A stretch of DNA of 39,294 bases, taken from positions 1-39,294 of IMG/VR virus record IMGVR_UViG_3300006802_000031. One strand, 5' to 3'. Source of the DNA: a virus. The position numbers and the translations under genes were made by a program. A model generated the notes under the pieces. That model ran no database searches, had not been told where the DNA came from, and saw only the letters and a program-made list of their open reading frames with translations. Positions 26 through 39,196 of the stretch are shown here, piece after piece (position 1 is the stretch's first letter; every line of letters begins with the position of its first letter).

Positions 26-123
26 ATAACGCGGGAAGGTGCGACGATGAAAAAAGTATTAATAAGCCGCTATGGCGCTTACGGTGATGTTTTACATTGC
101 TCTCACCTTCCCTCTCTTTTTAA
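1..123. repeat. Terminal direct repeat (left copy)
   Basis: Bases 1-123 are identical to 39172-39294. The repeat starts inside the last codons of the small head-protein gene and ends inside the first GT9 gene, so it does not respect gene borders. This is what an assembler leaves when a circular or circularly permuted genome is cut open. Seen directly: exact identity and coordinates. Inference: the unique genome is 39,171 bp and the left edge is not a natural end. A real short terminal redundancy is the alternative. Confidence 0.97.
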
Positions 124-1042
124 AAGCAAAGGTTATGATTATGTGGCCTTTGAAACTAATCATAAAGGGTACCAGGTGTTATTGGAGAACCCTGATATTG
201 ATAATCTGATCTATTTTGACCCATTAGATAATGGGCAGAACCGTTTCTCCCCTAATCGTCTTGCCGCCCATTGGAATGCCATCTCAGAAGGTTATGACTT
301 CTTTCTTAACCTAGTGAATTCTTTAGAAAGGAAGTACATCGCGATGGAGGACATGCCTGATTACTACATGGATGATATCCATAGGCGTAAACGTGGCGAT
401 GTTAATTATTATGATGCGATGACTTTAGAAGCGGGTTTTGATGAAGAAGTCGGCACACAGCATGGTAAGTTATTCTTTAATGATAAGGAAAATCAGATCA
501 TTGAAGATTGGTTAACTAAGAAAGAATTAAAAGATAAGTTTGTGGTATTGATCAATTTAGCGGGTTCTTCATTACAGAAGAAATTCACTCAAGCTAAAGA
601 ATTGATCTACATGATCCTAGAAAGTTACTCTGATGCGGTTCTGATAACAACTGGCGATGAATCAAGTAAGAAGTATTCATTGGCAGGAAAAAGAATTATC
701 AATTTAGAGGGGAAGTGGCCCTTCAGACAAGTGATGCACTTAGCCAAGCATGTCAATCTAACCATTGGCCATGAAAGCGGTATGATGATTGCTTCTAATA
801 TTCATGGTACCCCCACTATACAATTAATGACTTCATCAAGTCTAAGAAACCACCCCAATTATTGTGAAAACGATTTATCACTACAATCCCCTGCTAGGTG
901 TTCTCCTTGCAATCGTGGACCTTATCGTTTCGTAGGTTGTCCTTCAAAGGGAGGATTGCCGGTATGTGTTTATTTCGATCTATCAAAGATAATGAGAAAC
1001 GTGGAGAAAGCCTATAATGCTCGCACACATGAACTTCAGTGA
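47..1042 (+). CDS. GT9-family (heptosyltransferase-like) glycosyltransferase, copy 1
   Basis: 331 aa. The N-terminus (KKVLISRYGAYGDVLH) has the glycine-containing loop typical of GT9 ADP-heptose:LPS heptosyltransferases, followed by the usual NPDIDNLIYFDP stretch. Near residues 240-255 IGHESGMMIASNIHGTP fits the family's donor-site (D/H)(T/E)(G/S)xxHxA region, but the usual TG is ES. The C-terminus has the GT9 cysteine cluster (CSPC...C...C). Known for the family: transfer of a heptose-like sugar from a nucleotide diphosphate donor to LPS core. Inferred here: a sugar transferase acting on virion protein or host glycan. It lies directly after the head genes and overlaps the methyltransferase that follows by 26 nt, so the two are probably co-translated. 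Donor and acceptor cannot be read from the sequence. Confidence 0.8.
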   Translation: MKKVLISRYGAYGDVLHCSHLPSLFKSKGYDYVAFETNHKGYQVLLENPDIDNLIYFDPLDNGQNRFSPNRLAAHWNAISEGYDFFLNLVNSLERKYIAMEDMPDYYMDDIHRRKRGDVNYYDAMTLEAGFDEEVGTQHGKLFFNDKENQIIEDWLTKKELKDKFVVLINLAGSSLQKKFTQAKELIYMILESYSDAVLITTGDESSKKYSLAGKRIINLEGKWPFRQVMHLAKHVNLTIGHESGMMIASNIHGTPTIQLMTSSSLRNHPNYCENDLSLQSPARCSPCNRGPYRFVGCPSKGGLPVCVYFDLSKIMRNVEKAYNARTHELQ

Positions 1043-1787
1043 GAGGGTGCTTCAGAAGTGCCCGCTTTGTAATCAAAAACAACCTATCGTAGTTAGAGGT
1101 ACGGCCCCTGACATTGAAGACCCTAAAGTCCATAATGTCATTTGTGATCGTGGGTATTCTTTCTGCAACTGCCGTAATATCTATTATACGGATTGGTCTA
1201 ACATGAAGTTGGCTAATTACGATGAAGGGTATGAAGATAAATATGATACGGATGCGGTTAAAGATTTATTAGAGAATTATGCCGATAGGTATTATCCAAT
1301 GTTAAGTTCTTACGGGAAGCCAGGAGGCTCTTTTCTAGAGATTGGTAGCATCAATGAATTCTTATTAAACAAATTCAACCCAAATTATAAAACCTATGGG
1401 ATGGATGTTTCTTCTAGGGGATTTAAAAACAACTATTTCATTAAAGCCAATTTCGAATTTTTCGACACAAATGAAAAGTTTGATGTGATATGGGCTTCTC
1501 ATGTGTTTGAACATTTCAAGGACCCATTACGAGCAGTAGAAAAATGTTATGACCTTCTAACGGATGGAGGTTTATTATTTATTGCTATGCCAGATCCTTT
1601 CTTTATCGATTACGCTAATCTCTATGCTTGGGGACATTGGCATATTTATGAACACCATATCTTATGGGATAGAAACTGTTTTATAGAGGAAGTTGAGAGA
1701 AGGGGATTTCAATGTGTTTATAAAGTGAGAAATTCTTGTGAGTCGTTTATTTGCGTTGGGGACTATCATTTAATATTCAAAAAATAG
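1017..1787 (+). CDS. Zinc-ribbon SAM-dependent methyltransferase, copy 1
   Basis: 256 aa. An N-terminal cysteine knuckle (CPLC, later CNC) precedes a class I methyltransferase fold. Motif I reads FLEIGS near residue 108, motif II YGMDVS, and the post-motif region FDVIWASHVFEHFKDP is typical of Methyltransf_11/23-type small-molecule or sugar methyltransferases. It overlaps the end of the GT9 gene, and GGAGAAAG sits about 7 nt before this ATG, which favours 1017 over the ATG at 1029. The pairing with a glycosyltransferase suggests methylation of the transferred sugar, which is inference. It is a distant paralog of the product of 3572-4354. Confidence 0.75.
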   Translation: MLAHMNFSERVLQKCPLCNQKQPIVVRGTAPDIEDPKVHNVICDRGYSFCNCRNIYYTDWSNMKLANYDEGYEDKYDTDAVKDLLENYADRYYPMLSSYGKPGGSFLEIGSINEFLLNKFNPNYKTYGMDVSSRGFKNNYFIKANFEFFDTNEKFDVIWASHVFEHFKDPLRAVEKCYDLLTDGGLLFIAMPDPFFIDYANLYAWGHWHIYEHHILWDRNCFIEEVERRGFQCVYKVRNSCESFICVGDYHLIFKK

Positions 1788-1796
1788 GAGGCCAAT

Positions 1797-2009
1797 ATGC
1801 CAGGGTTTAAAGATAAAAGAAAAGCTGAAAAAGAGACGATGGAAGGAATGTTTACATCAAAGAATAAATCAAAGAGAGTAGTGAGAATGCCGAGTAGTGG
1901 GGCTTCCAAGATTAAAGTCAGTGATGAGCCTAAAAGATTTCCTAAGTTTGGCAATAAAACTTTTGAAGAGTTGACGGATGCAGAAAAGAAAAAAGCAGTA
2001 TTCGGTTAA
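1797..2009 (+). CDS. Small basic protein, unknown
   Basis: 70 aa, lysine-rich, with no recognised domain. A clear AGGAGG ribosome-binding site lies before the ATG, and the gene follows the methyltransferase by 9 nt. It sits in the glycan cassette between the two GT9/methyltransferase pairs. The basic, hydrophilic first half suggests a nucleic-acid or protein ligand, but no function can be assigned. Confidence 0.65.
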   Translation: MPGFKDKRKAEKETMEGMFTSKNKSKRVVRMPSSGASKIKVSDEPKRFPKFGNKTFEELTDAEKKKAVFG

Positions 2010-2023
2010 AGGAGGATAAAATT

Positions 2024-2206
2024 ATGGTTATGATGAATCAGATTAAAAGAGGGCCTACGCCTAAAGACAGTATGGGTATATCAGCTATGGGTGTGAGTGC
2101 CATTAAATCCATGAATCCCAAGATGACAATGCAGGGTGTTATGAAGAAGCCTATTGCAGATAGTAGAAAAGCTAATGTGAATCGTAATAAAGGCCCTAAT
2201 CCATAA
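2024..2206 (+). CDS. Small Met/Lys-rich protein, unknown
   Basis: 60 aa with many methionines spaced through the chain and a basic, Asn/Pro-containing tail. AAAGGAGG precedes the ATG, which supports translation. It shows no membrane segment or known motif. The Met-rich, low-complexity composition resembles small unstructured virion or accessory proteins more than an enzyme. Confidence 0.6.
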   Translation: MVMMNQIKRGPTPKDSMGISAMGVSAIKSMNPKMTMQGVMKKPIADSRKANVNRNKGPNP

Positions 2207-2215
2207 GGAATAGAC

Positions 2216-2545
2216 ATGGAATTTGTTATTAGAGGATGGAAACAACTATCTAATAAGCAGTTGATTAAGAAAGGGTACAAGCCCCGTCTTAATTACGAGC
2301 TGGTTGAGAAGGATGGCAAGAAGTCAGAGCATTTGAAGTGCCACTATTGCGGTAAACAATTCATCTATGATTTTAGTGAGCGGGACAGGTTCATTAAAGA
2401 AGGGCGATGGAACTTCAGAAAGGATAGGCCAGAGCATTGCGGTAACTCGACTTGTGCTGACTTTGTTCAGGATGTTGGAACCTCAAGAGAGAAGCACGCT
2501 AAAGAATTATTTGAAAGCTTATTGCAGCGAGGGTTTTGTAGGTGA
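2216..2545 (+). CDS. Zinc-finger protein, unknown
   Basis: 109 aa. A CHYC pair near residues 43-46 and a second H-C/C set (EHCGNSTC) near 75-82 suggest one zinc-binding site around a basic aromatic stretch. The stop codon overlaps the GTG start of the next GT9 gene (GTGA), so the two are translationally coupled. The role may be an adaptor for the cassette, which is only a guess from context. Confidence 0.65.
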   Translation: MEFVIRGWKQLSNKQLIKKGYKPRLNYELVEKDGKKSEHLKCHYCGKQFIYDFSERDRFIKEGRWNFRKDRPEHCGNSTCADFVQDVGTSREKHAKELFESLLQRGFCR

Positions 2546-3579
2546 AAGAACGCATATTGATTGCGAGGATTGGTGCTTTTGGCGATTGCATTATTATTAC
2601 GCCATTGATTCGACACCTAAAACAGCAAGGACATGAAATCTACGTTCTTACTTCAGAGCGTGGGATGGAGATTTTTAGTCACAATCCTCATATTGATAAA
2701 CTCATCCTTCATAAAAAAGACAGTGTTCACGTCACTAAGCTTAGGGACCACTTTAAAGTGATTCAAGAGACTTATGAATGCGGTCGGTTCATTGATCTAT
2801 GTGAAAGCATTGAATGTAACTTGGCATTCCATCCATCACAGCCAATGTATAATTATGATAGAGAGGAGCGTAAAGCTTTAGCCAACAAGAACTATTATGA
2901 GGAGACGTTTAATTTCGCTAAAGTTCCTGTAAAGGTTTCACATGAAACAATGCGCCCTGAAGTATTCTTTACAGAAAAAGAGGAAGTTAATAACACAGAA
3001 TTTCGCTCGCAATTTATAGGAAAGAAATTGATTGTGTGGGGTTTGTCAGGGTCGGCTCTTCATAAGAGTTACCCATACACTCACATTGTAATGTCAGAAA
3101 TACTTAATAAGCATGAGGATGTTGTATTTATCACGGTAGGAGATGAAGGTTGCGAGATATTAGAGCAGACATTAAGACATGAGAGAGTGGTTTGGAAGTC
3201 AAATAGATGGAATTTTAGAGAAGCTATGTGCATGGTCAGTCACGCATTTGCTATGGTATCCCCTGATACTGGCATTCTCCATTGCGCTGGTGCTTACGAT
3301 TTACCTAAAATCGGATTGCTCACTTCAGTATCTAAAACCAATATCACCAAATACTTTAAAAATGATCACAGCATCCAATCCGATGTCCCATGCGCCCCAT
3401 GTTACCGATTGATTTATGATGCTTCTGTTCAGTGCCCTACTGATTCAGAGATGTATGCCCCATTTTGTAATGCTTATGGGATTTCCCCACAACAAGTCAT
3501 CGATAAATTAAATAAGATCATAATGTTGGATGAAGTCTTTCGTTATGAAAAATCTAAAGAGGAATTAAGCTGTGCCTGA
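2542..3579 (+). CDS. GT9-family (heptosyltransferase-like) glycosyltransferase, copy 2
   Basis: 345 aa starting at GTG. It has the GT9 N-terminal signature (ERILIARIGAFGDCIIITPL), an NPHIDKLIL stretch and the donor-site motif SPDTGILHCAGA near residues 245-256. That motif is closer to the canonical DTGxxHxA than in copy 1. A cysteine cluster follows (CAPC...C...C). It is a diverged paralog of the gene at 47-1042, with its own methyltransferase downstream overlapping by 8 nt. It is probably a sugar transferase of the same pathway with a different donor or acceptor. Confidence 0.82.
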   Translation: MKERILIARIGAFGDCIIITPLIRHLKQQGHEIYVLTSERGMEIFSHNPHIDKLILHKKDSVHVTKLRDHFKVIQETYECGRFIDLCESIECNLAFHPSQPMYNYDREERKALANKNYYEETFNFAKVPVKVSHETMRPEVFFTEKEEVNNTEFRSQFIGKKLIVWGLSGSALHKSYPYTHIVMSEILNKHEDVVFITVGDEGCEILEQTLRHERVVWKSNRWNFREAMCMVSHAFAMVSPDTGILHCAGAYDLPKIGLLTSVSKTNITKYFKNDHSIQSDVPCAPCYRLIYDASVQCPTDSEMYAPFCNAYGISPQQVIDKLNKIIMLDEVFRYEKSKEELSCA

Positions 3580-4354
3580 AGTTGCTGAGAAAGAAATTAA
3601 GAAGGTTGATGTGGATGTCAATAAAGTGATGGCCGATGCCGCACAAAAGGCAGTTCATTGCCCCATTTGTAAGAATGAGCAGGTGTTTAACCATAAGATC
3701 CATGATTCTACTGATACGATGGTTACATGGTATCATTGTGGTTGTGGTACTGTATTCCATACTCAAGGTTTAGACAAGGCCGTTTTCGATGCCGATTATG
3801 TAGCTAAGTGGTTTAAAATGAAAGAGATTGAGCCAAGACTTGATTATTTTGTTCGCACTTACTTTGGCCAAATCTCACATTTAACTTATGGGCGTAAATT
3901 CTTAGATGTCGGGTTTACCATTCCTGTCATGATGGAAAGTTTAAAGAAGAAGGGTTGGATAACTACAGGGGTTGACATTATTCCAAATGATTACATGACC
4001 GATGATTTCGCAACTTTTGAATTTCAAGAAAAGTTTGATGTCATTCATTTAGGTCATGTGCTAGAGTCGATTGGCGATCCGATTGCCGCATTAAAAAAAG
4101 CCTTTGGCATGTTAAACGATATGGGCGTTCTAGTGATTACTCATCCTTGCCCAGAGTTATTGTTTGAGCTTGGCCCAAGAGCTTTTGGCCATTTCACGGA
4201 TTACCGAGAGCGTCATGTCTTTCTATCAGGGGCGGTCATCAAAAATATTGCATCTCAATGTGGATTTGAAGAGAAGTATTACGTCCGAAACCAAGATAGG
4301 AAATTTGCTATGTGGAATGACGCTCATTATATCTATCAGAAGAGGCCTTACTAA
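3572..4354 (+). CDS. Zinc-ribbon SAM-dependent methyltransferase, copy 2
   Basis: 260 aa with a GTG start and AGAGGAA upstream. Architecture matches copy 1: N-terminal CPIC and CGC knuckle, motif I FLDVGFT near residue 110, acidic TGVDI, FDVIHLGHVLE, and the same C-terminal pattern (GH...ERH...GF...YYVRN...H.IYQK). Motif I is degenerate for a SAM loop, with only one glycine, so activity is not assured. Its last base is the first base of the fibre gene's ATG, tying the cassette to the tail genes. Confidence 0.72.
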   Translation: MPEVAEKEIKKVDVDVNKVMADAAQKAVHCPICKNEQVFNHKIHDSTDTMVTWYHCGCGTVFHTQGLDKAVFDADYVAKWFKMKEIEPRLDYFVRTYFGQISHLTYGRKFLDVGFTIPVMMESLKKKGWITTGVDIIPNDYMTDDFATFEFQEKFDVIHLGHVLESIGDPIAALKKAFGMLNDMGVLVITHPCPELLFELGPRAFGHFTDYRERHVFLSGAVIKNIASQCGFEEKYYVRNQDRKFAMWNDAHYIYQKRPY

Positions 4355-6891
4355 TGAGATTTATATTATCATTGTTATTGTTGGTTAATTTATCTGGTGT
4401 TGCTTTTGGCCAGGCTAGAGCGACTTACGATAAGATGTCTCGATTAAGAGATACTAATTTCACTAGTATTGCAGATGATGATATCATTACTTATGATTTA
4501 GCTTCAGGGAAATGGATTAATGAATCAACTGGAGAGGCTTCGTTAGTCACTGGCCCAGCTTCTTCCACAGACAACGCAATCGCAAGGTTTGATGGTGCAA
4601 CTGGGACGCTTTTACAAAACAGTGGCGTAACTATCAGTGATGCTGGAGATATGAGTTTCAATGAAGGCAATATCACTGGACTTACTTCTATTGATGCGGA
4701 TTCTAGTTCGCTTGCATTTAATTTCGATAGCCTTATTGACGTTTCTTCAATTGTGATGATTGGGGATTTATTCTTAAATGGTGACAATGACGATGTTATT
4801 TTTGGTTCATCCCAAGACGCTAGCATTGGATATGATGGTACTAATCTGGTAATTAACCCAAGGTTAGTAGGGTCAGGGTCAGTTACTATTGGCGCAGGTG
4901 CGGCTGGGGTTGATTATGTTCTTTCATTTGATGGTGAGAGCGGTGACGGGACAATAACATTTGACGAGGACAATAGCCGATTTGATATCAATAATGACGT
5001 ACAAATCGGAACTAACAAAACTTTAGTGGTTTCAGAGACGGGGGCGGGTGACACGATCAGGATTCAACACTTAGGTACAGTGGATTATTTGTCGGCAAAT
5101 GAAACTGGGGGGACTAACTCGAATATTATCTTTGCAGACATACAAGGAGATTATAACTGGGGTCTTCATGTCAATGTGTCATCAACCGGTGCTAATTCTA
5201 AAGCTTTTGTTGGTGGGGCGCATGCTACTGATTCTAAGGTAATATTCGCTGATGTGGATGCTACAGGCGCAAGTATCCTATCAGGTTACCAAGCGAACAC
5301 GGCAAGTGATGGGACTCAAAACCTCATTGAGTTATTTGCCGCTCAAGATTGGCAAGATGGGAATACGGTGGGCAGGACATTTGATGGTGACTTCTTTGAA
5401 TTTCAGAACGCTGGGAATCTAAGAGCCAGACTTGATGCCGATGGATTGCTTCGCCTATATGAAACAGCGGGGACAAAGAATGTTAGGTTAGAGCATGACG
5501 GGACGAATGGTATTCTTAGGACTTCTTCAGGTGCTTTAGCTCTCACTTCTGGTTCAGGCGTTATCCATTTTCTTGGTGTTGACGGGACTAATAACGAACA
5601 ATTGATATGGGATATGGAAACTGTTGCTAATCGTCCAATTGTGTCCTCGGGGACAGGTGTTACAGACATCTTTTGGGGCGTTGGTATGGATATGCAATCA
5701 GATGTCAATTTCTGGTATGGTACCTCGAAAGAATGGTCTCTAATGTACAATGACGCGGTAGACGACCAATTGCTATTGCAAACTGCTAAGACTGGTTCCG
5801 CCGCAGTAACTGACCCTATGTTTGAGGTGTTGGTTGACACTGGTCTTGCTGGGGGTGTTCCTTCTAGCCAACAGTTATTTGGCGTTGCAGTAGGTTCGCA
5901 AGCTTCTAACACGCCTAAATTCACAGTGGATGAAGATGGTGACGGGTTCTTTTCCAGAAACTTAGATTTGGGCGTAAGCAACGGGGAAGAGACTACTTTT
6001 ACCATGTGGAGTGATACGACCAAACGAGGACTTATATTCCACGACGGCCTAACATTCACTATTGATGGTAGTGTTGCAACTCAATATTTCCAATTTGGAG
6101 ATTCTGGTACTCCTGTTTTTAGAGATATCAGGTTTATTAAATCTTCATCTAGCGGTGATATTGCTTTCATGATTACGTCTACGGAAATAATGACAATAAC
6201 GGATGACCAAAACATTGGGATAACTGATTCTACACCTAACCAAGGTAAATTAGACATAGATAATACGACGGGCAGTGATGCGCAGTATAATGGTATTGAT
6301 TTAACGCATACTACAGCCACAAACGACAAGAATGGTATAGAATTGCGTTTTACGTTAGGTGATGACGCAGACGCTTCTGACACGGTTGCTGCTATTAATA
6401 TCGACCCTGATAGTAGCACAAATGATGCTGACACTTTCGTTGGTATAAGATCAGAGTCTTTTACAGCCGGCACGGAGAATGCCACATTCATTGAAGTGTT
6501 TGGTACGGGGTGGGATGAGTTCCTTTCTTTTAATAACTTAACCGTGCTCGATGGCAGCAACAATTTAACGGTCAATGATGCAACTATTCAGGGGGCTTTA
6601 GTGCAAGCGACGGGGACAATTGCTGCTGATGATGTGACTCCGGATGTGTCAGGCGGGAATGTGTTTACCACTTCAGCGAATACAGGAGCCACAGCAATCA
6701 CTGATTTGGATAATCCCACAGTGGGGCAGATTGTTCGCATTATTGGAGGCTCTAACACTAATTCAAGTACAATTGCTGACAGTGGGAACTTTAACTTAAG
6801 TGCTGCCTGGACAGCTAGTCTTGACGATGTGCTGACTTTGTTTGTTCAAGCGGATAATGATTATATTGAAATTTCAAGGTCTAACAATTAG
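4354..6891 (+). CDS. Tail fibre protein with N-terminal signal-peptide-like segment
   Basis: 845 aa. Residues about 60-85 (TDNAIARFDGATGTLLQ, then NSGVTI) are a classic phage tail-fibre/pyocin-type repeat. Long beta-rich Gly/Asp/Thr-rich stretches follow. The chain shows no clear intramolecular chaperone or enzymatic tail. The first 20 residues (MRFILSLLLLVNLSGVAFGQ) look like a Sec signal peptide ending at AFG, which is unusual for a fibre assembled in the cytoplasm. It overlaps the methyltransferase by one base. Likely role: host surface recognition. Confidence 0.75.
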   Translation: MRFILSLLLLVNLSGVAFGQARATYDKMSRLRDTNFTSIADDDIITYDLASGKWINESTGEASLVTGPASSTDNAIARFDGATGTLLQNSGVTISDAGDMSFNEGNITGLTSIDADSSSLAFNFDSLIDVSSIVMIGDLFLNGDNDDVIFGSSQDASIGYDGTNLVINPRLVGSGSVTIGAGAAGVDYVLSFDGESGDGTITFDEDNSRFDINNDVQIGTNKTLVVSETGAGDTIRIQHLGTVDYLSANETGGTNSNIIFADIQGDYNWGLHVNVSSTGANSKAFVGGAHATDSKVIFADVDATGASILSGYQANTASDGTQNLIELFAAQDWQDGNTVGRTFDGDFFEFQNAGNLRARLDADGLLRLYETAGTKNVRLEHDGTNGILRTSSGALALTSGSGVIHFLGVDGTNNEQLIWDMETVANRPIVSSGTGVTDIFWGVGMDMQSDVNFWYGTSKEWSLMYNDAVDDQLLLQTAKTGSAAVTDPMFEVLVDTGLAGGVPSSQQLFGVAVGSQASNTPKFTVDEDGDGFFSRNLDLGVSNGEETTFTMWSDTTKRGLIFHDGLTFTIDGSVATQYFQFGDSGTPVFRDIRFIKSSSSGDIAFMITSTEIMTITDDQNIGITDSTPNQGKLDIDNTTGSDAQYNGIDLTHTTATNDKNGIELRFTLGDDADASDTVAAINIDPDSSTNDADTFVGIRSESFTAGTENATFIEVFGTGWDEFLSFNNLTVLDGSNNLTVNDATIQGALVQATGTIAADDVTPDVSGGNVFTTSANTGATAITDLDNPTVGQIVRIIGGSNTNSSTIADSGNFNLSAAWTASLDDVLTLFVQADNDYIEISRSNN

Positions 6892-6899
6892 GAGGTTTG

Positions 6900-7190
6900 A
6901 TGAGGGCAAAATTATTGTGTTTAGTTGCTTTGGTTGCTTGCGTTTCATTAGCGTATGCTGCGGAATTCACCCTTACAGTTCCAGATGAGCATGTGAATAG
7001 GGTTTTAAATGCATATGCAAGTACGTACCCTATCCCAGAAGACCCAAATGGTGACCCTATATATACTAAAGCTCAATGGGTGAAGAAAGTGCTTAAAGAA
7101 GAAATTATAGCTACCGTTCAACATTACGAGTATAGGGAAAGCGTTAAAGCGGTTGTTCCGGCTGAGCCAGACCCCAACATTGTTCAATAG
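6900..7190 (+). CDS. Small secreted tail-region protein, paralog A
   Basis: 96 aa. ATG 6900 is preferred over TTG 6897 because it gives a normal spacing from GGAGG. Residues 1-20 form a Sec signal peptide with an AYA cleavage site. The mature part (AEFTLTVPDEHVNRVLNAYA) belongs to a small phage family seen near fibre genes, with a conserved YPIP and a TKAQW motif followed by an amphipathic helix. It is paralogous to the next gene. No biochemical role is known to me. Confidence 0.7.
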   Translation: MRAKLLCLVALVACVSLAYAAEFTLTVPDEHVNRVLNAYASTYPIPEDPNGDPIYTKAQWVKKVLKEEIIATVQHYEYRESVKAVVPAEPDPNIVQ

Positions 7191-7201
7191 GAGACCATAT
7201 T

Positions 7202-7504
7202 ATGAGGAAGCTAGTTTTAGGATTAATATTAGCAGGAGCCATTGTCGGTTGTAGTAAAGAAATCCAAGCGGCAGAGATGACGATTACTATTCCGGACGCT
7301 AAAGTGACTAGGGTTTTAAATGCTTTTGAGGTAGTGTATCCTATCCCTAAAGACTCAGAGGGCACACCATTGTACACACAAGCCCAATGGGCAAGGCTAG
7401 TGATTAAACGATTCATCATTAATACCGTAACTCGTGGAGAGAACAAGGTTGCTAGAGAAGCCGCTACTGTTCCTGAAGACAATACTATAGCGGACGTTAG
7501 TTAA
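7202..7504 (+). CDS. Small secreted tail-region protein, paralog B (possible lipoprotein)
   Basis: 100 aa. It shares with the previous gene the pattern AE-T-T-PD-V-RVLNA, YPIP, TxAQW and an IIxTV helix, so this is a tandem duplication. Its signal segment contains IVGC near residue 17, a plausible lipobox. The product might therefore be a lipoprotein rather than a soluble exported protein. A good AGGAGA site precedes the ATG. Confidence 0.7.
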   Translation: MRKLVLGLILAGAIVGCSKEIQAAEMTITIPDAKVTRVLNAFEVVYPIPKDSEGTPLYTQAQWARLVIKRFIINTVTRGENKVAREAATVPEDNTIADVS

Positions 7505-37829: not shown

Positions 37830-38768
37830 ATGGCTCAAACTACTTGGACCAGTCATGGAACTACCCAGTTTTCACCTAAACTTTCCGCCGAGATGCGGGA
37901 GCAAGCGCTTCCGTTTTGGGTCTTTCGTCAGTTTGCAAAAACTCACGATGGCTTAGGGAAAGGTCGTGGTGATACTGTACAGTTCACTAAACGATTGAGA
38001 GTCGATGTACAAGGCGGCACTCTAGTGGAAACAGCAACCGTTCCATCTAACCAAATCAAATTTGTTAAAGATTCGATTGTGGTTACGGAATACGGTAATG
38101 CCGTTGAAGCAACAGAGAAAGTCTTAACCTTAAGTGAGTTCACTTTAGATAATGAATTCAATTCAGGTTTAGTCGATGATCAAAAAACTACTTTGGATTC
38201 TGCCGTAGCGACAGAGTTTCAAAGTGCTCAATACCGTGCCGTCTGTTCAACGACAGATTCTACGGTATTCACAACCAATGGTGCGCAAACTATCACGGCC
38301 TCAACCAATCCTTCGGACAAAAACATTCGAAGAATTGTGGAGTACATGAAAAAACGTCACATTCCTAAAATGGGTAACCACTATATTGGTATTCTATCTG
38401 TTGAAGCTATGGGCGGAGTTTATGACACCTTGCAAGCAATCGCACAGTATGCGGAACCTTCTTATCGTTTGAACGATGAAGTAGGCCGTTACTATGGGGT
38501 TCGTTTCGTAGAAGACAATGCCATTCTTTCTAATACGATTGGGAATGGTAGTGCCTACGGAGAAGGGTTAATCTTCGGTGACGAAGCGGTGTCAGAAGCT
38601 GTAGCGGTGCCTGAAGAACTCAGATTTGAAGTGGATGACCTTGGCCGTTCTAAGAAATATGCTTGGTATGCGATTCTTGGATGGAAGAAAACCTGGCATC
38701 TTGCAACCGATGACTCGAACAGTACCAACGCTGGTATTGAACGAATCGTTAGAATCTTTAGCGCCTAA
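37830..38768 (+). CDS. Major capsid protein, N4-gp56 family
   Basis: 312 aa. The N-terminus (TTQFSPKLSAEMREQALPFW), GRGDTVQFTKRL near residue 45 and a late YYGVRFVEDNAIL match the N4-gp56-type HK97-fold capsid. It forms the icosahedral shell. It is preceded by the scaffold candidate and followed by a small beta-rich head protein. Confidence 0.85.
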   Translation: MAQTTWTSHGTTQFSPKLSAEMREQALPFWVFRQFAKTHDGLGKGRGDTVQFTKRLRVDVQGGTLVETATVPSNQIKFVKDSIVVTEYGNAVEATEKVLTLSEFTLDNEFNSGLVDDQKTTLDSAVATEFQSAQYRAVCSTTDSTVFTTNGAQTITASTNPSDKNIRRIVEYMKKRHIPKMGNHYIGILSVEAMGGVYDTLQAIAQYAEPSYRLNDEVGRYYGVRFVEDNAILSNTIGNGSAYGEGLIFGDEAVSEAVAVPEELRFEVDDLGRSKKYAWYAILGWKKTWHLATDDSNSTNAGIERIVRIFSA

Positions 38769-38782
38769 AGGAGGAATATAAA

Positions 38783-39196
38783 ATGGGTAGACCTTATAGT
38801 GATCCAGCTTTCGGTGTTAAACAGATTTTACCTCTGGCTGACACGGGAGCTTTAAATGGGACGCGTGCAGCGGATACCGAGTTAAATCGGTTGACCTTTA
38901 TGCACCCAGTTTCTGTAACAGATGCGAACATGTATATGGTAGCAGGTGGAACAGGTTCGGTGTTAGCCGTAGCCCTTGGGAAATCAGCAGCCGGTACAGG
39001 TGCAATAACTCAGATTGGAACCTTAGCAATTGGCACTCAAGCCACGGCTACCGTTAAAGACGGTGCTGTGACTGAGACTTCTTTTGCTGCGGGTGATGAT
39101 TTGACAGTAGAAGTGCTTGCAGGAACAGCGACTATTGTCCCTAATGTAAGACTTTATGTCACATATAGAGAAGATTACGTCACTGGTAGTGACTAA
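38783..39196 (+). CDS. Small beta-rich head protein (decoration candidate)
   Basis: 137 aa. Ala/Gly/Thr-rich beta strands (AVALGKSAAGTGAITQIGTL, later VRLYVTYREDYV). Placed after the capsid gene with a strong AAAGGAGGA site. Likely a decoration or head-completion protein. The 3' end is also found at 1-25. Confidence 0.55.
   Translation: MGRPYSDPAFGVKQILPLADTGALNGTRAADTELNRLTFMHPVSVTDANMYMVAGGTGSVLAVALGKSAAGTGAITQIGTLAIGTQATATVKDGAVTETSFAAGDDLTVEVLAGTATIVPNVRLYVTYREDYVTGSD

Follow-up and report, generated by a model that had tools for sequence, protein, structure and literature searches.

A head-linked GT9 glycosyltransferase-methyltransferase module in environmental phages, a candidate virion glycosylation cassette

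The analysed window, a stretch of 39,294 nt from a virus (IMG/VR record IMGVR_UViG_3300006802_000031), carries two GT9-family glycosyltransferase (GT) genes, each overlapped by the gene of a zinc-ribbon SAM methyltransferase (MT), and dozens of divergent IMG/VR relatives share its gene layout. The link between these GT9-MT pairs and the phage head genes is old and specific, and the cassette is under purifying selection (dN/dS of about 0.04-0.17, wherever dS was computable). On balance, we consider it rather probable that the cassette serves virion glycosylation, with methyl capping of a sugar carried by the particle. The genes concerned, in the order found on the closed genome, are as follows.

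37830..38768, + strand: mcp, major capsid protein, the backbone gene for this module (E 3.5e-18 to PHROG 1357, major head protein).
38783..39196, + strand: o38, a threonine-rich beta-sandwich of 137 aa with an N-terminal YSDPxYG, which follows mcp in many loci.
47..1042, + strand: GT1, GT9 family, clade A, first position (PF01075, 23.3 bits, cut-off 22).
1017..1787, + strand: MT1, zinc-ribbon class I SAM methyltransferase (PF13489, E 2.3e-17), overlapping GT1 by 26 nt.
1797..2009, + strand: small ORF of 70 aa inside the operon, with no match in Pfam or PHROG.
2024..2206, + strand: small ORF of 60 aa inside the operon, with no match in Pfam or PHROG.
2216..2545, + strand: zn5, a cysteine-rich product of 109 aa, with homologues in 12 survey loci (iterative profile); its matches to zinc-ribbon profiles are weak and under the cut-off.
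2542..3579, + strand: GT2, GT9 family, clade B, second position, GTG start (PF01075, 44 bits, cut-off 22).
3572..4354, + strand: MT2, zinc-ribbon class I SAM methyltransferase (PF13489, E 9.6e-13), overlapping GT2 by 8 nt.
4354..6891, + strand: putative fibre-like protein of 845 aa, the next gene of the operon, outside the conserved module and with no family match.

The 123-bp direct terminal repeat found at the ends of the window indicates that it represents a circular phage genome, and the junction is bridged by a separate 7-kb record (L001) that reads portal-scaffold-mcp-o38-GT1-MT1...GT2-MT2. Once the circle is closed, portal, scaffold, mcp and o38 are followed by GT1-MT1, three small ORFs, GT2-MT2 and the fibre-like gene. 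The first-pass annotation had located the enzymes between the capsid and fibre genes; closing the circle bears out this arrangement, while the fibre itself is only a putative one, its product having a Sec-signal-like N-terminus (MRFILSLLLLVNLSGVAFGQA) and no recognised family. Likewise, the capsid had been assigned to the N4-gp56 type, a label that is reasonable given the PHROG 1357 match and a distant homologue annotated as capsid_maj_N4, although the match to Phage_capsid_3 (PF13252) is weak and below the cut-off. All four enzyme genes lie on the plus strand; o38 and GT1 are separated by 21 nt and every later gap is of 14 nt or less, or an overlap. This tight packing suggests that the module genes are co-transcribed with the late head genes; matches to consensus promoters and terminators were not commoner than in shuffled sequence.

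The presence of two GT9 genes, each overlapped by a methyltransferase gene, was confirmed by Pfam matches above the cut-offs for both families and by the overlaps given above. GT9 is the LPS heptosyltransferase family, chiefly associated with LPS core synthesis. Both GD and D/E-(S/T)-G motifs, as found in WaaC and WaaF, are present, the former containing D15, which we take to be the counterpart of the WaaC catalytic base. In an alignment of up to 113 sequences, D15 (109/109), E91 (113/113) and K175 (113/113) are conserved throughout, and Cys 284, 287, 298 and 309 are kept in 112/113, 113/113, 111/112 and 109/109, respectively. GT1 and GT2 are old paralogues, both predicted to be active enzymes; in the GT tree, clade A comprises 37 sequences. 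An AF2 model of GT2 (pLDDT 88.8) opens on a strand of the Rossmann N-lobe (residues 4-9), and the structural search that had been proposed for the enzymes gave, for GT2, the GT9 structure 3tov and WaaF (1psw) as closest PDB matches, with WaaC entries near behind. The enzymes thus share Pfam family, fold and motifs with WaaC and WaaF but differ from them in their pairing with methyltransferases and their linkage to the capsid gene of a phage, and are only 14-16% identical to them in structural alignments. Of the earlier description as heptosyltransferase-like, GT9 membership stands, while heptose as the transferred sugar finds no support beyond the family. A further comparison can be made with TibC, a bacterial autotransporter heptosyltransferase that has a four-cysteine finger (C-x2-C-x15-C-x11-C) and an N-terminal beta-barrel of ~97 residues (PMC4358343). 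TibC has a related GT-B fold, glycosylates protein and carries its metal finger in the C-lobe, the four near-invariant cysteines of GT2 being a candidate counterpart with a similar but shorter spacing (C-x2-C-x10-C-x10-C); it also possesses a beta-hairpin thumb besides the barrel, whereas GT2 is structurally closer to 3tov and WaaF. Membership of GT2 in the TibC-type (BAHT) group was rejected because the beta-barrel is absent from the model.

The methyltransferases score 63.6 (MT1) and 48.6 bits (MT2) against Methyltransf_23, for a cut-off of 27. In a comparison of seven homologues, C30, C33, C56 and C58 are invariant and form a CxxC...CxC pattern, which is a real zinc-ribbon pattern and a putative metal site. 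In the same comparison, the first glycine of SAM motif I (G114) and D135 are invariant, the remainder of the GxGxG being degenerate; this poor conservation weighs against the reading of the cassette favoured here. The MTs probably methylate the sugar that would be added by their partner GTs.

The survey of related phages suggested by the first-pass annotation recovered the predicted four-gene order next to the capsid gene in dozens of phages. A single-protein capsid query of IMG/VR gave L001 alone, and an alignment-based search was then used that matched at least 570 mcp relatives, of which 80 were kept. In the mcp-seeded survey, a GT9 gene occurs 6 kb or less downstream of mcp in 30 of 35 non-redundant loci and upstream in 0 of 40, and four loci are devoid of GTs. 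When loci were seeded with the GTs, mcp was found upstream in 46 of 47, usually with o38 in between. Clade A precedes clade B in all 26 loci (26/26), and an MT lies directly downstream of the GT in 34 of 36 cases for clade A and 36 of 42 for clade B (70/78 together). Most of the 29 remaining GT9s are N-terminal MT-GT9 fusions, in which Pfam resolved the MT domains separately; SAM motif I has apparently been lost in some of these fused domains. A true C-terminal GT9-MT fusion occurs in one locus (L006), the only one left under strict profiles, the other "GT9+MT" single-ORF labels of a first gene-order map having resulted from drift of the MT profile.

Outside this group, tblastn searches of 50,697 phage records returned no match for GT1, GT2, the GT consensus, the MT consensus or an MT-GT9 fusion, and MT1 alone gave one weak 22% match, in Synechococcus phage S-SKS1. 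The cultured capsid relatives inspected have no module in the slot downstream of the capsid gene. A scan of a genome collection with a single narrow motif detected one relative, a 3.7-kb contig in an Omnitrophota MAG that has the gene order of the window and is most likely phage itself; the possibility, raised earlier, that the genes are a fragment of a host LPS locus therefore failed within the scope of that scan.

Besides linkage, the enzymes co-vary with the head proteins, and the two lines of evidence tie the glycan genes genetically to virion protein genes. In the same 23 loci, co-variation reached 0.69 for o38/GT-A and 0.81 for mcp/GT-B but only 0.24 for o38/GT-B; partial correlations for the first two pairs were 0.62 and 0.80 (permutation p 0.001). 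The pattern recurs in both halves of the locus set, MT-A co-varying with o38/GT-A and MT-B with mcp/GT-B. This suggests specific enzyme-substrate pairs, although the o38/GT-A component could also arise if one contiguous piece of DNA were exchanged as a whole, irrespective of substrate. o38 itself is a candidate head decoration protein and glycan acceptor: its mean threonine content is 14.6% versus 9.2% for mcp, and Foldseek searches with its AF2 model (pLDDT 84.6) gave weak matches to phage fibre-like proteins and to the KHP40 cement protein, with no convincing named relative.

If the cassette does glycosylate the virion, GT1 (clade A) would, upon late expression, add a sugar to a head protein or to the first sugar on it, and the added sugar would be methylated by MT1; the clade B enzyme, GT2, and its partner MT2 would act likewise on another residue or on a different protein. 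The product would be a short methyl-capped glycan at the capsid surface, with o38 as best guess for the acceptor of GT1/MT1 and either the capsid protein itself or the following sugar for that of GT2/MT2. The virion would thus be the acceptor and the glycan may act in shielding or in altered surface contact. The scanned window proteins included no recognisable sugar-nucleotide gene product, and donor sugars would therefore be supplied by the host. A broader and more tentative extension, possible but doubtful as it stands, is that a widespread uncultivated podovirus-like lineage maintains one enzyme pair per acceptor, GT-A/MT-A and o38 being exchanged as a cassette and GT-B/MT-B being inherited with the capsid protein, so that the slot would be a "glycosylation island" diversifying the particle surface.

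An unlikely alternative is late modification of the host envelope, in which LPS or some other glycan of the cell surface would receive sugars from the GT9s, capped by the MTs, so that progeny avoid binding to cell debris or competitors are excluded. The association of GT9 with LPS heptosyltransferases fits this scenario, and the downstream fibre-like and small proteins of the window and several relatives have Sec-signal-like N-termini, so that an action of these phages on the envelope of the host is conceivable. Glycosyltransferases located near the tail fibres of pelagimyophages have been interpreted as modifying the O-chain (PMC7029224); they too lie close to virion genes, but what that account describes is a host-recognition cluster of mostly GT8 enzymes, with no GT9-MT tandem that follows the capsid gene. 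Against envelope modification stand the position of the capsid gene ahead of the enzymes in nearly every GT-seeded locus, the co-variation with head proteins, and the recovery of a single phage-like contig as the only relative in bacterial genomes (narrow single-motif scan). Alternatively, and quite improbably, the slot behind mcp/o38 is a tolerated cargo site for late accessory genes, and linkage would then say nothing of the substrate. Slot content indeed varies widely, and some relatives have no module, including the four mcp-seeded loci and the cultured capsid relatives mentioned above; yet the identifiable slot genes are mostly glycan-related (in other phages, transferases of the GT2 and GT4 families, RmlD, FdtA and DegT), the same two paralogues occur in fixed order even where capsid identity falls to about 40%, and co-variation with the capsid protein is closer for GT-B than for the neighbouring o38. 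Finally, glycosylation and methylation of bases in phage DNA, for which glycosyltransferases serve in DNA hypermodification as cited in PMC12619734, is extremely improbable, as the genes sit in the head operon, the GT2 model has a GT9 fold and no gene for base modification could be recognised in the scanned window proteins.

Virion glycosylation, the reading that we favour, has precedents. In the chlorovirus PBCV-1, two GTs and two methyltransferases (A064R, A061L) make a methylated capsid glycan (PMC9614988). The resemblance lies in a virus-coded GT pair and MT pair, one GT-MT unit being fused, and a major capsid protein that bears a methyl-capped glycan; PBCV-1, however, is a eukaryotic virus with an N-glycan and a proven acceptor, against candidate acceptors in the window, and the A064R domains are rhamnosyltransferases of unrelated, non-homologous GT families. 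In mycobacteriophages, glycans occur on capsid and tail-tube protein and phage-encoded glycosyltransferases are implicated (Freeman et al. 2023, cited in PMC12619734 and PMC12691614); what these citing accounts relate of them includes no GT9-MT tandem, and hosts and phages are unrelated. The claim that no such phage system had been described is thus to be narrowed: in a limited open-access search, mycobacteriophages and chloroviruses were the only precedents for phage-encoded capsid glycosylation, and a GT9-MT module next to the capsid gene of a podovirus was not described.

If the particles are glycosylated, a branch of environmental phages would wear a methyl-capped sugar coat of their own making, which could affect sticking to surfaces, avoidance of debris, survival of grazing and recognition. 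With two pairs of enzymes and two acceptor candidates, the module would then represent a compact phage protein glycosylation system that is testable in E. coli.

The window, a virus record in its own right, is circularised: an identical 123-base sequence occurs at both of its ends, and the junction is spanned by L001, a separate 7-kb IMG/VR record whose proteins are identical to those of the window. Across the closed ends the order is terminase, SU10-type portal, scaffold, mcp, o38, GT1, MT1, three small ORFs, GT2, MT2 and a fibre-like gene, with an SU10-type adaptor encoded farther downstream. The features concerned are as follows.

37830-38768, + strand: mcp, major capsid protein gene
38783-39196, + strand: o38, gene for a small Thr-rich protein of 137 aa
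47-1042: GT1, GT9-family glycosyltransferase
1017-1787: MT1, zinc-ribbon SAM methyltransferase
2216-2545: zn5, cysteine-rich protein of 109 aa
2542-3579: GT2, GT9-family glycosyltransferase
3572-4354: MT2, zinc-ribbon SAM methyltransferase
4354-6891: fibre-like gene

GT1 and GT2 pass the Pfam GT9 cut-off, and MT1 and MT2 that of Methyltransf_23. With 27% identity between the GTs and 28% between the MTs, the two pairs appear to stem from an ancient duplication. Since o38 and GT1 are 21 nt apart and all later module gaps are of 14 nt or less, or are overlaps, co-transcription of the module appears probable; consensus promoter and terminator matches in the window showed no excess over shuffled sequence. 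The adjacent small genes at 6897-7190 and 7202-7504 are a tandem duplication, their products sharing 48% identity.

When the GT alignment was used as a profile query, IMG/VR yielded 56 loci, and the gene order beside the capsid gene to which the first-pass annotation had drawn attention recurs: most of the loci are arranged as mcp, o38, GT9, MT, optional genes, GT9, MT and tail genes. In this set mcp lies upstream in 46 of the 47 loci with enough sequence; in L002 the pair occurs on the opposite side of the packaging genes. Because loci should not be chosen by the feature itself, a second survey was seeded with the capsid alignment, scored with strict profiles and counted per capsid cluster (90% identity) wherever the sequence extended 4 kb or more downstream (n = 35) or upstream (n = 40). 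Drawn from the best 80 of at least 570 capsid matches with a query alignment built from GT-bearing loci, its frequencies are valid for this neighbourhood of the capsid tree: a GT9 gene occurs within 6 kb downstream of mcp in 30/35 clusters, any of the four GT types sought in 31/35 and a zinc-ribbon MT in at least 19/35, a lower bound as fused MTs were left out of the count, and neither GT types nor MT were found upstream in the 40 clusters. An inserted ORF, probably an intron or intein, interrupts the capsid gene in six loci (L002, L018, L019, L025, L028 and L047), leaving two or more capsid ORFs; the insert of L002 resembles an HNH endonuclease by eye.

The GT9 tree comprises clade A (first position, 37 sequences), clade B (second position, 47) and 29 others. 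A precedes B in all 26 loci having both, and an MT directly follows the GT in 34/36 cases for clade A and 36/42 for clade B. Most of the 29 others are proteins of 490-770 aa with an N-terminal MT domain or MT-like stretch, and L006 carries a separate GT9-MT fusion with the domains in reverse order. This recurrence of association and fusion suggests that each MT modifies what its partner GT has made. Among the N-terminal fusions of L064, L070, L079, L080, L098, L101 and L107, several sequences have seemingly lost SAM motif I, the MT domain being perhaps a non-catalytic relic or a binding domain.

Across as many as 113 non-redundant GT9 domains, D15, E91 and K175 never vary, and four cysteines (284, 287, 298 and 309, GT2 numbering) are nearly invariant. 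Wherever dS is computable, pairwise comparisons of GT and of MT give dN/dS of 0.04-0.17, with similar values for mcp and o38. The GT2 model (pLDDT 88.8) best matches the GT9 structures 3tov, WaaF and WaaC, followed by TibC. In the MTs the acidic residue is retained, as is the EH..DP region; SAM motif I is degenerate, however, making their predicted activity less certain than that of the GTs.

As to the acceptor, distances were compared in the 23 loci having o38, mcp, GT-A and GT-B (the clade A and B enzymes). Those of o38 track GT-A (0.69) and those of mcp track GT-B (0.81), o38 and GT-B being barely related (0.24). After correction for the other head gene, 0.62 and 0.80, respectively, remained (permutation p 0.001), and the pattern is present in both halves of the locus set and extends to the MTs. 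Plain DNA distance is no explanation, since mcp adjoins o38 yet follows the distant GT-B more closely. In the simplest history, o38, GT-A and its MT would be swapped as a block, with the backbone inheriting mcp together with GT-B and its MT. Such a history agrees with o38 as a candidate substrate of the first enzyme pair, but the same pattern would arise if contiguous DNA were exchanged with no substrate relation involved. The predicted o38 model is a Thr-rich beta-sandwich whose structural resemblance to fibre-like and cement proteins is only weak.

Elsewhere, no members of the GT family were found among 50,697 phage records. Among cultured phages, the records inspected were those of Vibrio podophages, E. 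coli PTXU04 and Bas95 (capsid ca. 40% to the family consensus) and of Bacteroides and Streptomyces phages (ca. 30%). None has annotated glycan genes after the capsid gene, although many genes in these records are annotated only as "hypothetical protein", and profile searches of two of these phages found no GT or MT there. A narrow scan of bacterial genomes gave a single relative: a contig of 3.7 kb from an Omnitrophota MAG (GT9-zn5-GT9-MT-fibre-like), which is probably a phage fragment given its gene order close to that of the window. Further glycan genes occupy this slot in other phages, among them GT2- and GT4-family members and homologues of FdtA, DegT and RmlD. L053 and L056 have FdtA, DegT aminotransferase, RmlD and epimerase homologues between the GT9-MT pairs, which points to an amino-sugar nucleotide pathway encoded by the phage. 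Sulfotransferase-like sequences were seen by eye in L016 (7294-8001, without a Pfam match at E 0.001) and L048 (924-1382), and L016 also has a GDSL/SGNH hydrolase in this slot; further glycan decorations are possible.

We rather favour virion glycosylation with methyl capping as the role of the module. Late modification of the host envelope is considered less likely. Predicted Sec-signal-like N-termini occur just downstream of the module (4354-6891, 6897-7190 and 7202-7504, e.g. MRFILSLLLLVNLSGVAFGQA), also in downstream fibre-like or small proteins of L007, L008, L016, L023, L060, L105 and L135, as compared with only 10/412 ORFs upstream of mcp by a crude rule; it would be unusual for a phage to export fibre-like proteins, and this could favour a role at the host surface. 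For glycosylation of the virion, PBCV-1 offers a like logic, with two GT and two MT activities that build and methylate its capsid glycan (PMC9614988), although the GTs are not homologous. TibC, a heptosyltransferase glycosylating protein (PMC4358343), is a functional precedent with a related fold; its N-terminal barrel is missing here, and a BAHT identity for the window GT was therefore rejected. Among phages, the precedent is the virion glycosylation of mycobacteriophages, as cited in PMC12619734 and PMC12691614.
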